Source: Yersinia massiliensis
Lineage (GTDB): Bacteria; Pseudomonadota; Gammaproteobacteria; Enterobacterales; Enterobacteriaceae
Assembly: GCF_003048255.1 (NCBI RefSeq)
Contig: NZ_CP028487.1
Span: 4,340,001-4,404,000, forward strand
Reading direction: 5' to 3'
Length of the DNA: 64,000 bases
This document shows positions 21,365-34,532 of the stretch, in pieces. Position numbers and translations under genes: made by a program. How positions within the stretch are numbered: the first letter of the stretch is position 1; each line of letters begins with the position of its first letter. The notes beneath the pieces are model-generated. The model did not search any database, was not told where the DNA came from, and saw only the letters and a list, made by a program, of their open reading frames with translations.

Positions 21365-22138
21365 ATGATGAAACAACAATCTTTACCCATCGTTCCATGG
21401 ATCGGCGGTAAACGCCGTCTGGCTAAACATATTTTGCCACTGTTTCCAACCCACACCTGCTATGTAGAGCCGTTCAGCGGCGCAGCTGCTTTGTATTTTC
21501 TCAAGACCCCCAGCAAGACCGAGGTCATTAACGATATCAACGGGGAACTGGTGAACTTATACAGGGTAGTAAAACACCATCTGGAAGAGTTTGTCCGGCA
21601 GTTCAAATGGGCGCTGGTGAGTCGCCAGATCTATAAATGGTTGCAGGACACGCCGGAAGAGACACTAACCGACATCCAGCGTGCCGCCCGGTTCTACTAC
21701 CTTCAAAAGCAGGCATTTGGCGGCAAAGTCGCCGAGCACACCTTCGGCATCTCCACTACCAGTGCACCGCGCTTTAACCTGCTGCGCATCGAGGAAGAAT
21801 TGTCGATGGCGCACCTGCGTCTATCTAGAACGCTGATTGAGCATCTGGACTGGCACAAGTGTATTGAGCGCTATGACCGTCCCCATACACTGTTTTACTG
21901 CGACCCTCCATACTGGGGAACGGAAGGCTACGGCGTGGAGTTTGGGCTGGAAAACTATGACCACATGGCGGAGCTGGCACATAGCATCAAAGGAAAGATG
22001 ATTATTTCGGTGAACGATATCCCGGAAATGCGGCGTGCATTCAACGGTCTAAATTTTCAGACGGTGGATATTAGCTATAACCTGAAAGTCACTGGGAAAG
22101 CGGCGTCTCGGAAAGAATTAGTGATTTGTAATTTCTAA
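21365..22138 (+). CDS. DNA adenine methylase (Dam/D12 class)
   Basis: 257 residues. The SAM-binding PWIGGKRRLAKHILPLFP (11-28) and VEPFSGAAALYF, and the catalytic DPPY at 180-183, define a class alpha N6-adenine methyltransferase of the D12/Dam family. It points away from the late operon and is separately transcribed. Mu has the Mom modification gene at its far end; here an adenine methylase in the control region may protect phage DNA from restriction or alter host Dam-type regulation. The recognition site cannot be read from sequence. A strong hairpin closes the gene. Confidence 0.9.
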   Translation: MMKQQSLPIVPWIGGKRRLAKHILPLFPTHTCYVEPFSGAAALYFLKTPSKTEVINDINGELVNLYRVVKHHLEEFVRQFKWALVSRQIYKWLQDTPEETLTDIQRAARFYYLQKQAFGGKVAEHTFGISTTSAPRFNLLRIEEELSMAHLRLSRTLIEHLDWHKCIERYDRPHTLFYCDPPYWGTEGYGVEFGLENYDHMAELAHSIKGKMIISVNDIPEMRRAFNGLNFQTVDISYNLKVTGKAASRKELVICNF

Positions 22139-22194: not shown

Positions 22195-22944
22195 TTAAAT
22201 TGGCTCAGCAGTGAACCAATTACCAATAGTATCACTACTCATAAAACTGAATTTTATGCCATTGAATATTGTTGAAACTGCCGATTCCCCTTCTGAAACT
22301 TTCTTATCCAATTCAACCAACTTCATCATTAGTTTAGCTGGCTCTCCAGTTTTCATTGTGTTTTCACCCAATGCTGCAGAGTATGCCGATACAACAATGG
22401 CCATAACATCTATACCAGACTTAGTGGTACCATCACCGCTGGTGATTAGGGTGATGCCAGACAGTTTTTGACTTACCTTATCGACAGTTCCCACGATGGC
22501 TAAATGATCATTGAATGTATAATTGAAAGTATCATTGACTTCACCACTTTTAACATGAACTCTTAGTCTAAATAAGCTTCCGGTCTCTTTAAGATTAGCA
22601 TTCATTCGTTTGGCGAAGACTTCAGGTGTTATTTCTAAGGTCTTTTTAGGCTCAATATCTACTGGTTCATTTACAACTTTGGGGGCTAATTCAACAGATC
22701 CTTCCTTAGGTTGTGCATGAGTTTGGGCTGTACTTGTGTCAATCGCTGCTGTTTTGGGATTATCGTTATCTTGGGTTGGAATCAGTAAAATTAAGAAAAA
22801 CAGCGCAACTACTGCACCAACAATAGTTCCGCTGGTTTTGCTCAACCATACCTTATGACCTTTTCGGATAAAATGCCGTGACAAGAGTTTACCCACGATG
22901 ACCCAGATGGCTACCGCTGCAATTAAAGCTAAAAATTCGTTCAT
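22195..22944 (-). CDS. Membrane protein of unknown function (accessory)
   Basis: 249 residues from the ATG at 22944 (MNEFLALIAAVAIWVIVGKLL), preceded by GGAG; an in-frame ATG at 22959 has no such site. Two membrane helices (about 4-20 and 41-60) bracket a basic loop (RHFIRKGHKVWLSK). A flexible Thr/Ala/Pro linker and a roughly 140-residue soluble domain with a beta-rich centre follow (FRLRVHVKSGEVNDTFNYTF, AIVGTVDKVSQKLSGITLITSG). Not recognised. It is A/T-rich relative to the structural genes and sits between dam and the repressor operon, so it is probably a lysogenic accessory gene. Confidence 0.62.
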   Translation of the reverse strand: MNEFLALIAAVAIWVIVGKLLSRHFIRKGHKVWLSKTSGTIVGAVVALFFLILLIPTQDNDNPKTAAIDTSTAQTHAQPKEGSVELAPKVVNEPVDIEPKKTLEITPEVFAKRMNANLKETGSLFRLRVHVKSGEVNDTFNYTFNDHLAIVGTVDKVSQKLSGITLITSGDGTTKSGIDVMAIVVSAYSAALGENTMKTGEPAKLMMKLVELDKKVSEGESAVSTIFNGIKFSFMSSDTIGNWFTAEPI

Positions 22945-23029: not shown

Positions 23030-24013
23030 CTATTTCAAACGATATCTAGGTGCTTTGCCCTGACTTTCTGAACTATCAATCAGAAGTTTTAGACATGATG
23101 TATTGAGTACCTTGGCGTAATCCCCATCTGGGGATATGTTGATATAGCATTTATTTTGGTCAAGATTGTACTTGGCTCGAACTGGTGCGTCATCAGCGAT
23201 GGGTAAGACAATTGTGCGCCAACCAGATTTCTGCCTGTAACTTGAAACTGAGAGGAAATCTGCTTTGTACTTGTTTAGTCCAGGAAATATACTGCGCAAA
23301 GCGGGAATTGAAGCATTTATTATATTGTCATTTGTCTCGACAATAAAAATATTTTCTTCGCTCGTTCTGGTCTCTTTTGCTGAAGCCCATCTGTCAGAAT
23401 AACTCACGAACCCAACCAGAGCTGCGGCAACGATGATAACTCCGCCCCCTAAGATAACGAGCGGTTTTCTTTTTGTTAGAACCGTCGTTTTTGCTGGCTG
23501 CGGCACAGTATCCTTTGGCAACGGCAACACTTCACAGTCGTCACAAACATCCAGTAACTCATCAAAATAACCAAATATTTCCTGAAGCTGTTCTTTACTC
23601 ATTCCCTTGAGATGAGTTGTACCGAAATGCTTCAGGCAATATCTGTCTCTATCTTTACGGTAAGCGGGATCAGTAATGCTTATTACTTTGGCAACCAGAA
23701 TATTACAGTCTTTGAGGTACTTTATACGCTGAGCATACCCCTGAAGGATCTCAACTGCGCCATGATAATCAGCGGCCGTCATCTCGTTGACGGTAGTGGT
23801 GTTAAGTCTGGTATGGAGCAGCAACCACATTTCTCGCTTGCTTTCACCAGCGTCCACTAACTCATCCATCAACCTGTGCAAATCGCGCTTCTGTAGCAGC
23901 GAAATTGGCTGCTGGGTAGCAGTTGAAACTTCACCAGAGTAGTTATTAATGGTTACGTCACCGCTGACAACGTTACCTACATCTCCGTTAACTGTTTGTT
24001 TTGGTTCGCTCAT
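23030..24013 (-). CDS. Single-pass membrane partner of the repressor
   Basis: 327 residues. Residues 5-25 (KQTVNGDVGNVVSGDVTINN) share a short motif with the repressor C-terminus. Residues 36-100 (LLQKRDLHRLMDELVDAGESK, TRLNTTTVNEMTAADYHGAVEIL) resemble the helical module at the end of phage antirepressor/ORF6C-type proteins (tentative). KRK precedes one membrane helix (185-204), predicting the N-terminus inside and residues 210-327 in the periplasm, with two Cys (289, 307) able to form a disulfide. The ATG overlaps the repressor stop (ATGA), so the two are co-translated. Function unknown; a signal receiver acting on the repressor is a reasonable hypothesis. A/T-rich. Confidence 0.68.
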   Translation of the reverse strand: MSEPKQTVNGDVGNVVSGDVTINNYSGEVSTATQQPISLLQKRDLHRLMDELVDAGESKREMWLLLHTRLNTTTVNEMTAADYHGAVEILQGYAQRIKYLKDCNILVAKVISITDPAYRKDRDRYCLKHFGTTHLKGMSKEQLQEIFGYFDELLDVCDDCEVLPLPKDTVPQPAKTTVLTKRKPLVILGGGVIIVAAALVGFVSYSDRWASAKETRTSEENIFIVETNDNIINASIPALRSIFPGLNKYKADFLSVSSYRQKSGWRTIVLPIADDAPVRAKYNLDQNKCYINISPDGDYAKVLNTSCLKLLIDSSESQGKAPRYRLK

Positions 24014-24432
24014 TTTCTCTTCGTGTTTTTATTCATTACTGTCCCAGCTCCCATCGTCACATTACCTTTAATAACGTTCCCGAGAACATCTCCGTGGATT
24101 ACCTGTTCTGCTCGTTCTTTGGAAGAACCCGTCGTTAATGCTGATAACACCGACCCTTTGACCTGAAGAGGTGCCTCCCGGTAACGCTGCAGTAACTCCA
24201 TTTCATCTCTGGAAAGGGTTGTTCCTGATGACTCCCCCGTCAGAATGTATTGAATGTTAGCCCCTGCAGTAGCTAATGCAGCGAGAACCTCCATTCCTGG
24301 TGACATAAGACCAGACTCATATCGACTCCACGTCTCGCGCTTAACTCCCGCGAGCAATGCTGCTGTGGCCTGAGTCAGCTTTAGTTTTTTTCGCTCTTCT
24401 TTGAGACGCTCAAATATTGACTTATTAGTCAC
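24010..24432 (-). CDS. XRE-family lysogeny repressor with C-terminal GDV/GNV motif
   Basis: 140 residues from a GTG at 24432 (M-T-N-K-S-I-F-E-R-L), chosen because AAGGTGG lies just upstream; a frame extension to 24507 would cover the operator region. The helix-turn-helix covers about 6-60 (LTQATAALLAGVKRETWSRYES). It has no peptidase-type cleavage domain. The C-terminus (109-127, EQVIHGDVLGNVIKGNVTM) repeats the motif of the next protein. It is divergent from the early operon across an 85-base operator region, the position of a Mu c-type repressor, and should silence transposition genes. Confidence 0.83.
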   Translation of the reverse strand: MTNKSIFERLKEERKKLKLTQATAALLAGVKRETWSRYESGLMSPGMEVLAALATAGANIQYILTGESSGTTLSRDEMELLQRYREAPLQVKGSVLSALTTGSSKERAEQVIHGDVLGNVIKGNVTMGAGTVMNKNTKRK

Positions 24433-24517: not shown

Positions 24518-24706
24518 ATGACTGCAGAACAAGTTAAAACTCTCTTCCGTCAGCGTGGGGTCACATTTACCCGCTGGGCTGAAGAAAATGGCTATACCCG
24601 TAATGAGGTCTACCGGGTTCTTAATGGTCAAGCCAAAGCTCACTACGGCAAATCCCATGAAATTGCTGTAAAGCTGGGACTTAAACCTTCAGCTCAAGCT
24701 GCCTGA
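24518..24706 (+). CDS. Ner-like early regulator
   Basis: 62 residues with a single helix-turn-helix (RGVTFTRWAEENGYTRNEVYRVLNGQ), much like small Ner/Cro-type proteins of transposable phages. An AAGGAG ribosome site precedes the ATG. It is the first gene of the rightward early operon, directly opposite the repressor, the same place as Mu ner, which damps early and repressor transcription. A copy of the ATCACAT heptamer lies just after it. Confidence 0.8.
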   Translation: MTAEQVKTLFRQRGVTFTRWAEENGYTRNEVYRVLNGQAKAHYGKSHEIAVKLGLKPSAQAA

Positions 24707-32908: not shown

Positions 32909-32994
32909 AAAAGTATCCCACGAAATCCACAGTCTTCCCCTAAAGTCCCATAATTATCTCACGGTTACCCCTGTATTTATCTCATGTCTAATCA
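32909..32994 (-). mobile_element. Prophage terminus with subterminal transposase-site repeats
   Basis: Read inward on the minus strand from 32994 the end begins TGATTAGACATGAGATAAAT. The motif T-G-R-G-A-T-A followed by an A/T-rich stretch occurs at 32973-32984, 32950-32961 and 32909-32920, with starts separated by 23 and 41 bp; a partial copy lies at 32942-32950. A terminal TG and a set of spaced direct repeats are what a Mu-class transposase end needs. The exact last base is inferred from where AidB homology stops. The partner end is outside the window. Confidence 0.7.
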
Positions 32995-34532
32995 GGAGGC
33001 GATGAAAAACGCATTAATTGTGCCGCACAACACAGATCAAAGAGTTGTTGAGTCAGTGCTCGTCCCTGTTCTTCCTTGGGGGCTTTCAACCGCTGCTGCA
33101 ATTGCCGCCATGCGCGATCAAACAAACGGTTCTGCCCACGTACTGGATAAAACTCTTGTTGTAGCATGTCGATGGCTGCTGGCAGCTTGCGGAATGTACG
33201 CAATACATCAAGGCACATGATATTGCCAGACCCCTCCCAGATGCTGTTGACCGGCATTTCACGATAAAGTCGTGGCAGTTCACTTTGTTCGCAATAGCCG
33301 ATCCCGCCAAGTACTTCCATCGCTTCAGCAACAAAGGCACTGCCCAGACCACAGACTCGATATTTTGCCGCCGGTGTCAGTAAGCGACTGAATATCTGTT
33401 CGTGAGCCTCTTTGGGCTTCTCCCATGATCGAGCTAAACGCATCAGTAACGCGGTATGCCCCTCAAGGCGCAATGCCATGCGGCTGAGTTCTTGCCGCAT
33501 TAAAGGTTGCTCAACCAATGCTTTGCCAAATGCTTGCCGCTGCCAAGCATGGTAGAGCGCAACAGAAAAGGCTCGTCGCATCAGACCATGGCTACCCAAT
33601 GCGCAATCGAAACGGGTATATCCGCCCATCTTCAAGATTTGGCGGATTCCGTCCCCTTCATCACCCAATAGCCATGCGCTAGCATTTTCAAATTCCACTT
33701 CACTGCTGGCATTAGAACGGTTACCCAGCTTATCTTTCAGCCGTTCTAATCGAATGGCGTTATGGGTGCCATCAGGCAATATTTTAGGCAGGAAGAAACA
33801 AGATAAGCCGCCTTCGGCCTGCGCCAGTACCAGATGAGCATCACTCTGCGGCACAGAGAAAAACCACTTGTGCCCCACCAGACGATAAGCTTCACCGTGA
33901 CCACGTGAGCCCAACGGTTCTGCCCGCGTAGTATTACTGAGTACATCAGAGCCTCCCTGTTTCTCCGTCATGCCCATCCCAATCAGCAAGCCCCGCTTCT
34001 GGTTACCAACGACCTGATGAGAGTCATAGCGATCAGAAAGCAATGGCGGCAGCCAATTTTGAAAAAGCGGTGGAAGTGATTGTTGCAACAAAGGAATAGC
34101 ACCAAATGTCATCGTGATGGGGCATAACGTTCCGGCCTCAACTTGAGCATGCAGGATAAAACGTGCCGCTCGAGCCACAAAAGAGCCGATGCGAGCATCT
34201 TCCTGCCAAGGTAGGTTATGCACCCGATGCTTAACCAATTCCTGCATCAACACATACCACGCGGGGTGAAATCGCACCTGATCTAGCCGCTGACCGGCGG
34301 CATCGTAGCGTAATAATTCGGGCGGGTTATTGTTTGCCAACCGCCCTAATTCCAGTGACTCCTGCGAACCAAGTTGTAACCCAATCAGAGAGAGTTCCTC
34401 CCCATCCCAACCCGCATGCTCCCGCATCACGGCTTCTCGCAATGCCATATCAGATAAAAATAAATTACTGTTCGATAATGGCTCTGGTTGATTGAAAACC
34501 AAGTGGGTCTGCCACTCCATACCTTCCTCCAT
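32995..34532 (-). pseudogene. aidB: AidB, C-terminally truncated by the prophage
   Basis: AidB is an acyl-CoA-dehydrogenase-like flavoprotein of the Ada adaptive response to alkylation. The frame matches E. coli AidB closely (WQTHLVFNQPEPLSNSNLFLSD, GLLIGMGMTEKQGGSDVLSN, LYREMPVNSIWEGSGNIM). It stops after SSPPD, where E. coli continues for about 36 residues. The final Asp and stop come from prophage sequence (coding would end at 32988). The lost part belongs to the C-terminal DNA-binding/tetramer region, so activity is probably impaired. The probable start is the second Met (MEWQTHLVF, 34520). The 262-base gap upstream holds the rlmB terminator and presumably the aidB promoter. Confidence 0.85.

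Follow-up and report, generated by a model that had tools for sequence, protein, structure and literature searches.

The window analysed here is a 64,000-nucleotide stretch of Yersinia massiliensis DNA, and it contains a Mu-like prophage with matches to GemA (E = 4.7e-39), an AAA ATPase and an rve-type transposase (E = 4.1e-7, just under the cut-off). The gene order of the prophage is that of an E. coli relative, and Serratia is the source of the closest named relatives for both the repressor and the membrane partner described below. The features of the locus are collected in Table 1. A phage immunity-type repressor is followed by a gene for a membrane protein (the partner) and by a third gene on the same strand, and a small HTH gene diverges from the repressor. 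The ATGA overlap of the repressor and partner genes reported in the first-pass annotation was confirmed, and it would couple the translation of the two. A D12-class adenine methyltransferase gene (window 21365-22138, + strand; Pfam E = 2.4e-27) adjoins the repressor operon. The host flank to the right of the prophage starts with aidB (window 32988-34532, - strand; AidB_N E = 1.3e-55), the product of which presumably has a shortened C-terminus at the phage end, judging by the usual length of AidB.

Table 1. Features at and around the repressor operon of the window prophage
Feature	Position in window	Strand	Remarks
Small HTH gene, divergent from repressor	24518-24706		phrog_925
Phage immunity-type repressor, 140 aa	24010..24432	(-)	HTH at residues about 10-56; GTG start behind AAGGTGG; without peptidase domain
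Motif copy 1, repressor residues 109-125, EQVIHGDVLGNVIKGNV	24058..24108	(-)	In predicted disordered C-terminal tail; starts EQVIHGDV...
Start/stop overlap ATGA, repressor/partner	24010..24013	(-)	Sequence
Membrane partner, 327 aa (P0002; PHROG 10002)	23030..24013	(-)	phrog_10002 E 1.8e-144
Motif copy 2, partner residues 5-21, KQTVNGDVGNVVSGDVT	23951..24001	(-)	Predicted disordered N-terminus, pLDDT about 40; starts KQTVNGDV...
Cytosolic helical module, partner residues 31-155	23549..23923	(-)	Homologous to Flk, by profile comparison
Transmembrane helix, partner residues 185-203	23405..23461	(-)	Hydropathy 2.76
C-terminal domain with C289 and C307, partner residues 224-327	23033..23344	(-)	AF2 pLDDT 73-91 per block from residue 221
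Third gene, same strand, 249 aa (P0003)	22195..22944	(-)	Hydrophobic N-terminal helices, judged by eye

Pfam analysis of the repressor revealed HTH_3 (E = 3.8e-9) and no other domain, and the S24 peptidase family was absent among its matches up to E = 1. The PADLOC matches of the protein were to HTH parts. In the AF2 model, pLDDT was 70-93 per block up to residue 100 and below 50 over residues 104-140, and the C-terminal tail is predicted to be disordered. A cleavable repressor of the CI/LexA type was considered and rejected, as the protein is 140 aa long, has no S24 peptidase domain and ends in a tail of low AF2 confidence.

Neither the window partner nor the other partners scanned matched a Pfam family above cut-off. 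The single membrane helix named in the first-pass annotation was confirmed by hydropathy, and the flanking Lys and Arg residues suggest an N-in, C-out topology; the C-terminal domain is presumably periplasmic. That domain does contain two cysteines, as had been described, and the whole protein contains six. A fold search with the C-terminal domain gave no confident match.

The helical module had been labelled ORF6C/antirepressor-like, and this label found weak support. The Ant family phrog_245 matched the module with an E value of 0.019 in the window partner and 1.3e-5 in the partner at locus L029; ORF6C gave no Pfam match in the window partner and matched gene 2 of L038 at 17.7 bits (E = 0.0037), compared with a Pfam cut-off of 22 bits. 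An antirepressor link of the module is weak on these scores. The flagellar regulator Flk matched better. When nine partners were scanned with the Flk model NF007987, E values of 1.1e-17 (L029), 2.6e-16 (L035), 1.3e-10 (L062) and 5.6e-7 (window partner) were obtained, with marginal values in L091 (1e-3) and L050 (0.0052), and the match was not seen in three of the nine (L021, L086 and L097). By profile comparison, then, the helical module of the window partner is homologous to Flk. The scores, 29 bits for the window partner and at most 64 for any partner, fall far below the equivalog cut-off of 353 for full-length Flk. The partner profile also detects the Flk of the host itself, at both of its tandem domains. 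This protein (G000:C1:1533689-1534522 of the same genome; also L243) scores 465.7 bits against NF007987, as a true Flk does, and is built from two copies, in tandem, of the module that occurs singly in the phage partners; neither the N-terminal motif nor an upstream HTH gene was seen at host Flk. This suggests that Flk and the phage partner share a common ancestry. The fold nearest to the initial part of the window module is that of the C-terminal domain of Red beta, at a score below the level that can be trusted, and this is a lead only.

The repressor tail and the partner N-terminus carry a similar motif. The first-pass annotation had aligned the two over 17 positions with one gap and about 11 identities; the similarity and the gap held up, and the count was corrected to 10 identities in 18 aligned pairs by local alignment (score 53). 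None of 5000 double shuffles of the motif pair reached this score (mean, 22.9; sd, 4.5; maximum, 44), and the maximum among 5111 other pairings of a C-terminus with an N-terminus, taken from window ORFs of at least 120 aa, was 45. A strict motif pattern matched the window at these two sites only, with no match in the third gene, and a looser core pattern gave one further match, within an ORF that we take to be mutL. The likeness of the window pair is far above chance. AF2 modelled both motifs with low confidence as single chains, as one would predict for a docking motif; the same low confidence neither supports nor excludes a cross-beta amyloid.

We then asked how the two motifs vary across other loci. 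On the repressor side, the best 80 of 438 confirmed candidates gave 46 nonredundant loci, 44 of them with a downstream ORF. These loci were gathered with the repressor alignment, and it is the other tail types that provide the test. The natural subtypes include GDV/GNV, NRVAGRD, VGQ and GDFNGQ. Tails went with downstream N-termini of their own subtype, for example VSGKGNRVAGRDFNENK with STGGQNRVAGRDFNENK (L046), INSSGGQVAGRNIIN with INRNDGQVAGRDINN (L092) and FNGDISGQFAGNQIIN with FNGTAQGQFSSRDIIN (L041). Over the 44 loci, true pairs of tail and N-terminus had a mean score of 40.4, compared with 26.3 (sd, 1.45) after re-pairing, and none of 20,000 permutations reached the true value. Control segments were flat (18.8 versus 19.4 for partner residues 61-120; 20.9 versus 21.1 for the repressor segment before the tail). 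When each tail cluster was represented by a single locus (n = 26), the means were 36.2 and 24.7 (sd, 1.5), again with 0 of 20,000 permutations. These permutation counts are not exact probabilities, because related loci are not independent. The true partner was the best-scoring one in 11 of the 44 loci and was within the top five in 24.

The covariation was independent of the DNA-binding domain. Given HTH similarity, the partial correlation between tail and partner N-terminus was 0.32 in all 44 loci and 0.65 in 28 loci selected for a score of at least 33 (0 of 5000 permutations in each case); in the same 28 selected loci, that between HTH and partner N-terminus given the tail was 0.05 (818 of 5000). 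The two motifs are adjacent in the DNA and are therefore inherited together, which explains correlated variation between loci but not likeness within one locus. At matching residues with a synonymous choice (445 sites in 43 pairs), codons agreed in 45.4% of cases, compared with 42.7% expected from local codon use. Since codons agree hardly beyond the local expectation, the likeness appears to be held at the protein level, and codon choice argues against a recent DNA duplication as the source of the motifs.

The pairing was established from both sides, with the shuffles granted the same choice of ORF as the real data. A matching N-terminus lay within 1.7 kb downstream of the repressor at p 0.01 in 31 of 46 clusters. 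Among the 15 misses, L024 (0.02) and L048 (0.015) were borderline, and a motif pair was visible by eye in L034, L037 and L052; in L036, L039, L040, L042, L047, L055, L056, L059, L090 and L098, inspection by eye found the motif missing on the partner side or altogether. Komp_PAO1_1, the named relative of L059, has Mu-like gene content and carries the tail only; nowhere in its genome is there a convincing second copy. Tail-bearing repressors thus exist without a partner, and the tail would have some use on its own. On the partner side, 122 loci fetched with partner proteins gave 39 nonredundant loci, and the tail of the upstream gene matched at p <= 0.01 in 34 of them. The five misses were L193 (p = 0.037) and L187-L190 (p = 0.14-0.98), the latter alike by eye alone. 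A distance of 446-519 bases separates the partner from the matching tail upstream of it in L121, L251, L252 and L259, and the match is still there. A partner-profile search of further genomes, judged by eye, yielded readable non-Flk partners at 10 of 18 inspected loci, six of the 10 from one genus; all 10 had an upstream HTH protein, nine with a clear motif match and one (L232) with a weak match of the L187 type.

The search of repressor neighbourhoods for both motifs, which the first-pass annotation had proposed, thus returned matched pairs repeatedly. It had also held that the link would be coincidental if related prophages kept the motif in one of the two proteins alone; both proteins keep it in the 34 and 31 loci just given, and for a minority of tails no partner was found. 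Taken together, the sequence comparisons mark the two motifs as a pair under selection and matched by subtype, which is met again in dozens of divergent loci. This is what homotypic contact of a repressor with a membrane protein would be expected to leave behind. That the motifs are short, low-complexity stretches rich in Gly, Val and Asn could invite an explanation by chance, to which we give practically no weight: it is refuted by the shuffles and permutations on the window pair, the repressor side and the partner side (0 of 5000 shuffles reach 53 and 0 of 20,000 re-pairings reach 40.4).

Other variation in the neighbourhood was seen at individual loci. At L034 and L190, which lie on the same contig, a gene of about 400 aa stands between repressor and partner, and the motif tail is retained on the repressor; at L178, the partner has another ORF ahead of it. 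The motif-tailed repressors of L036, L040 and L090 are followed downstream by short proteins that combine a hydrophobic stretch with a CxxxxKxYxxG...C segment and in which no N-terminal motif was recognised.

Closer relatives of the window proteins were also compared. A search of a 5.8-billion-protein database found 22 homologs of the window partner besides itself, and the motif was present in the first 60 residues of all 22. In the 18 full-length rows of 23, the motif segment (residues 5-22) was the best conserved of seven partner segments compared, with a majority-residue fraction of 0.96; the values were 0.82 for residues 38-155, 0.71 for residues 231-327, 0.69 for residues 23-37, 0.49 for the transmembrane segment (residues 186-205), 0.48 for residues 206-230 and 0.39 for the linker. 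Among 13 repressors with this tail type, the window's own included, six had tails 83-96% identical to that of the window repressor and N-terminal parts 42-46% identical, which points to exchange of the DNA-binding domain with retention of the tail. One of the 13, P0032, has a tail just 50% identical to the window's. At loci found in related genomes with the window protein alone, the motif pair was present in four of seven.

These data bear on the possibility that each protein merely self-oligomerises through its motif and that the likeness reflects an old duplication and a common constraint. Tails do persist without partners, and an isolated motif can serve self-assembly alone. Matching of subtypes within a locus is nevertheless unexpected unless the two copies see each other, the HTH domains and partner bodies vary while both motifs stay matched, and the codons show no recent duplication. 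We regard separate self-assembly as improbable, and direct contact between the two motifs as quite probable.

The architecture of the partners recurs, with the motif at the N-terminus, a helical module in the larger ones and a membrane helix toward the C-terminus. Hydropathy identified a transmembrane helix in 24 of 28 partners from strong pairs, and a single one in 18 of 28. In many partners the chain ends with the membrane helix and has no part beyond it; the periplasmic parts of the others are of differing types. Some are a small extracytoplasmic domain with two cysteines that resembles DUF1496 (PF07383) below its cut-off of 20.2 bits (15.5 in L097 and 16.6 in L050); no match to this family was obtained in L052, L066 or L039. 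The first-pass annotation had suggested that the repressor may be tied to a membrane or periplasmic signal, with a response to the envelope state. The periplasmic domain is optional in relatives, which weakens this reading, and envelope sensing is not supported in general.

Several loci depart from the simple order of genes. Locus L038 (3501-5029) has a repressor, a protein without a transmembrane helix and a protein with two, encoded by consecutive genes and bearing one motif subtype, which is a natural split of the module. In L028 and L121, tandem HTH repressors, both with GRD-type tails, stand ahead of a single GRD-type partner. The partner gene of Escherichia phage 520873 (L199:3001-3607) is interrupted by in-frame stops in its public record, where it is also unannotated; intact family members exist.

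The region of the GDV-type pair was found in 125 of 5426 complete E. coli genomes, and the match spans at least 80% of its length in 123 of the 125. Carriers include Mu-like prophages of Serratia and E. coli, the plasmid pENTAS02 and Peduoviridae, namely Burkholderia phages AP3 and Carl1 (genes 39/38 in each) and Escherichia phage 520873; the motif match has p = 0.002 in Carl1 and just 0.024 in AP3. Mu-like and P2-like phages both carry the motif pair.

We propose that the two proteins may form a lysogeny-switch module, made together in the lysogen and binding motif to motif. The repressor would consist of an HTH domain and a disordered tail ending in the homotypic motif; the partner would bear the same motif at a disordered N-terminus, followed by a cytosolic helical module (Flk-like in most larger partners), a membrane helix and an optional periplasmic domain. 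Subtype matching would confine the contact to the phage's own pair. The membrane protein could then capture the repressor, or co-assemble with it, at the membrane, which would take the repressor off its operators and lower the threshold for induction; the helical module, with the periplasmic domain where present, may be the regulated input. Matching tags on the repressor tail and the head of the membrane protein suggest that the sleep/wake switch is probably wired physically to the membrane. Capture is favoured because the genes overlap and are probably expressed together, because the window repressor lacks a cleavage domain, and because the nearest precedents, by analogy, are the Rex proteins (which contact CI, with RexA biasing toward lysis) and Flk, a membrane-anchored inhibitor. 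Direct binding, co-expression, the antirepressive direction of the effect and the input of the switch are what we infer. As a whole explanation, the antirepressive switch module is the one we prefer, at slightly less than even confidence; that membrane capture loosens repression is likewise tentative and falls a little short of probable.

The main rival is Rex-like exclusion, in which the signal would enter through the repressor and the membrane protein would carry out the response: a change in the state of the repressor, brought about by incoming phage DNA or by lytic events, would free or cluster its tails, and these would nucleate the partner, which would then damage the membrane or block the superinfecting phage. 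The partner gene adjoins the repressor, as rex stands beside cI in a passage of PMC11077077, and a motif on a membrane-acting effector would follow amyloid signalling logic. According to a section of PMC9936078, moreover, olg1 and gene 10 of phage Fc02, upstream of a B3-like repressor, are known exclusion genes, and e4, downstream of the repressor, is transcribed in the lysogen. Against this, PADLOC gave no match for the window partner and the third gene (at E 0.1) or for the partners of L035, L062, L021, L086 and L097; its only matches among the partners were weak ones, to SIR2 in L029 (E = 0.031) and to coiled-coil families in L091 (E = 0.0015 and 0.0027). The single transmembrane helix in 18 of 28 strong-pair partners does not amount to a bundle, and Flk, the nearest characterised relative, is described in part of PMC13344023 as a membrane-anchored inhibitor of a secretion switch. 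We consider exclusion unlikely, and tethering and separate self-assembly less likely still. Under tethering, co-assembly would strengthen repression by keeping operator-bound repressor at the membrane, raising its local concentration or cooperativity. The anatomy would be the same as for capture, and since the repressor is small and the HTH is its sole Pfam domain, oligomerisation may come from the tail, but partnerless tail-bearing repressors exist; we find tethering improbable.

A wider reading of the preferred capture model can be formulated. Temperate phages, the Mu-like and P2-like kinds at least, might use matching, co-evolving, prion-like address tags to join the immunity repressor to a membrane receptor, often of the Flk type, and templated co-assembly might switch the repressor off, possibly with a self-propagating, subtype-specific memory that decides induction or superinfection; host Flk would share the ancestry of the receptor. 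In this full form the idea is rather doubtful. If it held, prion-like tags could give the lysogenic state such a memory. To our knowledge, how phages with small, noncleavable repressors sense when to leave the lysogenic state is largely open, and a subtype-matched tag that joins the repressor to a membrane protein is a concrete candidate wire for the sensing of induction.

Several known systems invite comparison. Like the RHIM, BASS3 and the fungal PP motif, the motifs described here are about 20 residues long, rich in Gly, Val and Asn, and apparently homotypic in their logic. The RHIM core tetrad is given as VQVG in PMC7618891. An identity with RHIM or BASS3 was rejected, as HGDVLGNVIKGNV and NGDVGNVVSGDV contain no (V/I)-Q-(V/I)-G; the RHIM-like character suggested in the first-pass annotation was not borne out, since a VQVG-like tetrad is missing from both window motifs. 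Some partner modules match ORF6C/Ant antirepressors weakly, below curated cut-offs, and the partners are membrane anchored. As far as we know, the N-terminal domains of Ant proteins are absent from the partners.

Lambda CI, RexA and RexB resemble the present pair in that the genes adjoin the repressor. According to the part of PMC11077077 that treats them, the Rex proteins, of which one is a membrane protein, form an exclusion system and make contact with CI, and RexA biases the switch to lytic growth. The cytosolic and membrane parts are divided over two proteins in Rex, unlike here; rex genes are expressed in the lysogen, whereas what is known here is adjacency and the ATGA overlap. We know of no motif common to Rex and CI. 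Scans with PADLOC, Pfam, PHROG and NCBIfam gave no Rex family match for the window partner.

Flk (RflH, "Fluke") is presented in a section of PMC13344023 as a 333-aa cytoplasmic protein with a C-terminal anchor, a membrane-anchored inhibitor that keeps flagellar secretion in the early mode. Like Flk, the window partner combines a cytosolic helical domain, homologous in the two, with a membrane anchor toward the C-terminus; host Flk differs from the partners in its two tandem domains and in showing neither the motif nor the HTH gene upstream. Flk would gain a set of phage relatives.

The closest parallel to the arrangement of the motifs is found in the NLR/Bell pairs (BASS), in which, as a passage of PMC8086366 has it, one product carries a short motif at its C-terminus and the neighbouring product one at its N-terminus; the motifs are alike within a pair and fall into several families. 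The window pair and the related loci likewise bring matching C- and N-terminal motifs together on neighbouring products. That neighbouring genes can share a homotypic motif is a principle already known from the NLR/Bell pairs. Neither an NLR nor a Bell domain was found here by Pfam, which detected the HTH in the repressor and nothing above cut-off in the partners. Searches of the PMC literature, which omits most subscription papers, gave no description of a repressor/membrane-partner motif pair among the top-ranked papers. Here the protein with the C-terminal motif is a repressor that binds DNA, and the one with the N-terminal motif is helical and anchored in the membrane; this is, as far as we have found, a new use of a homotypic motif pair, and one that, if the proposed contact is real, extends the paired-motif logic from immune NLRs to transcriptional control.
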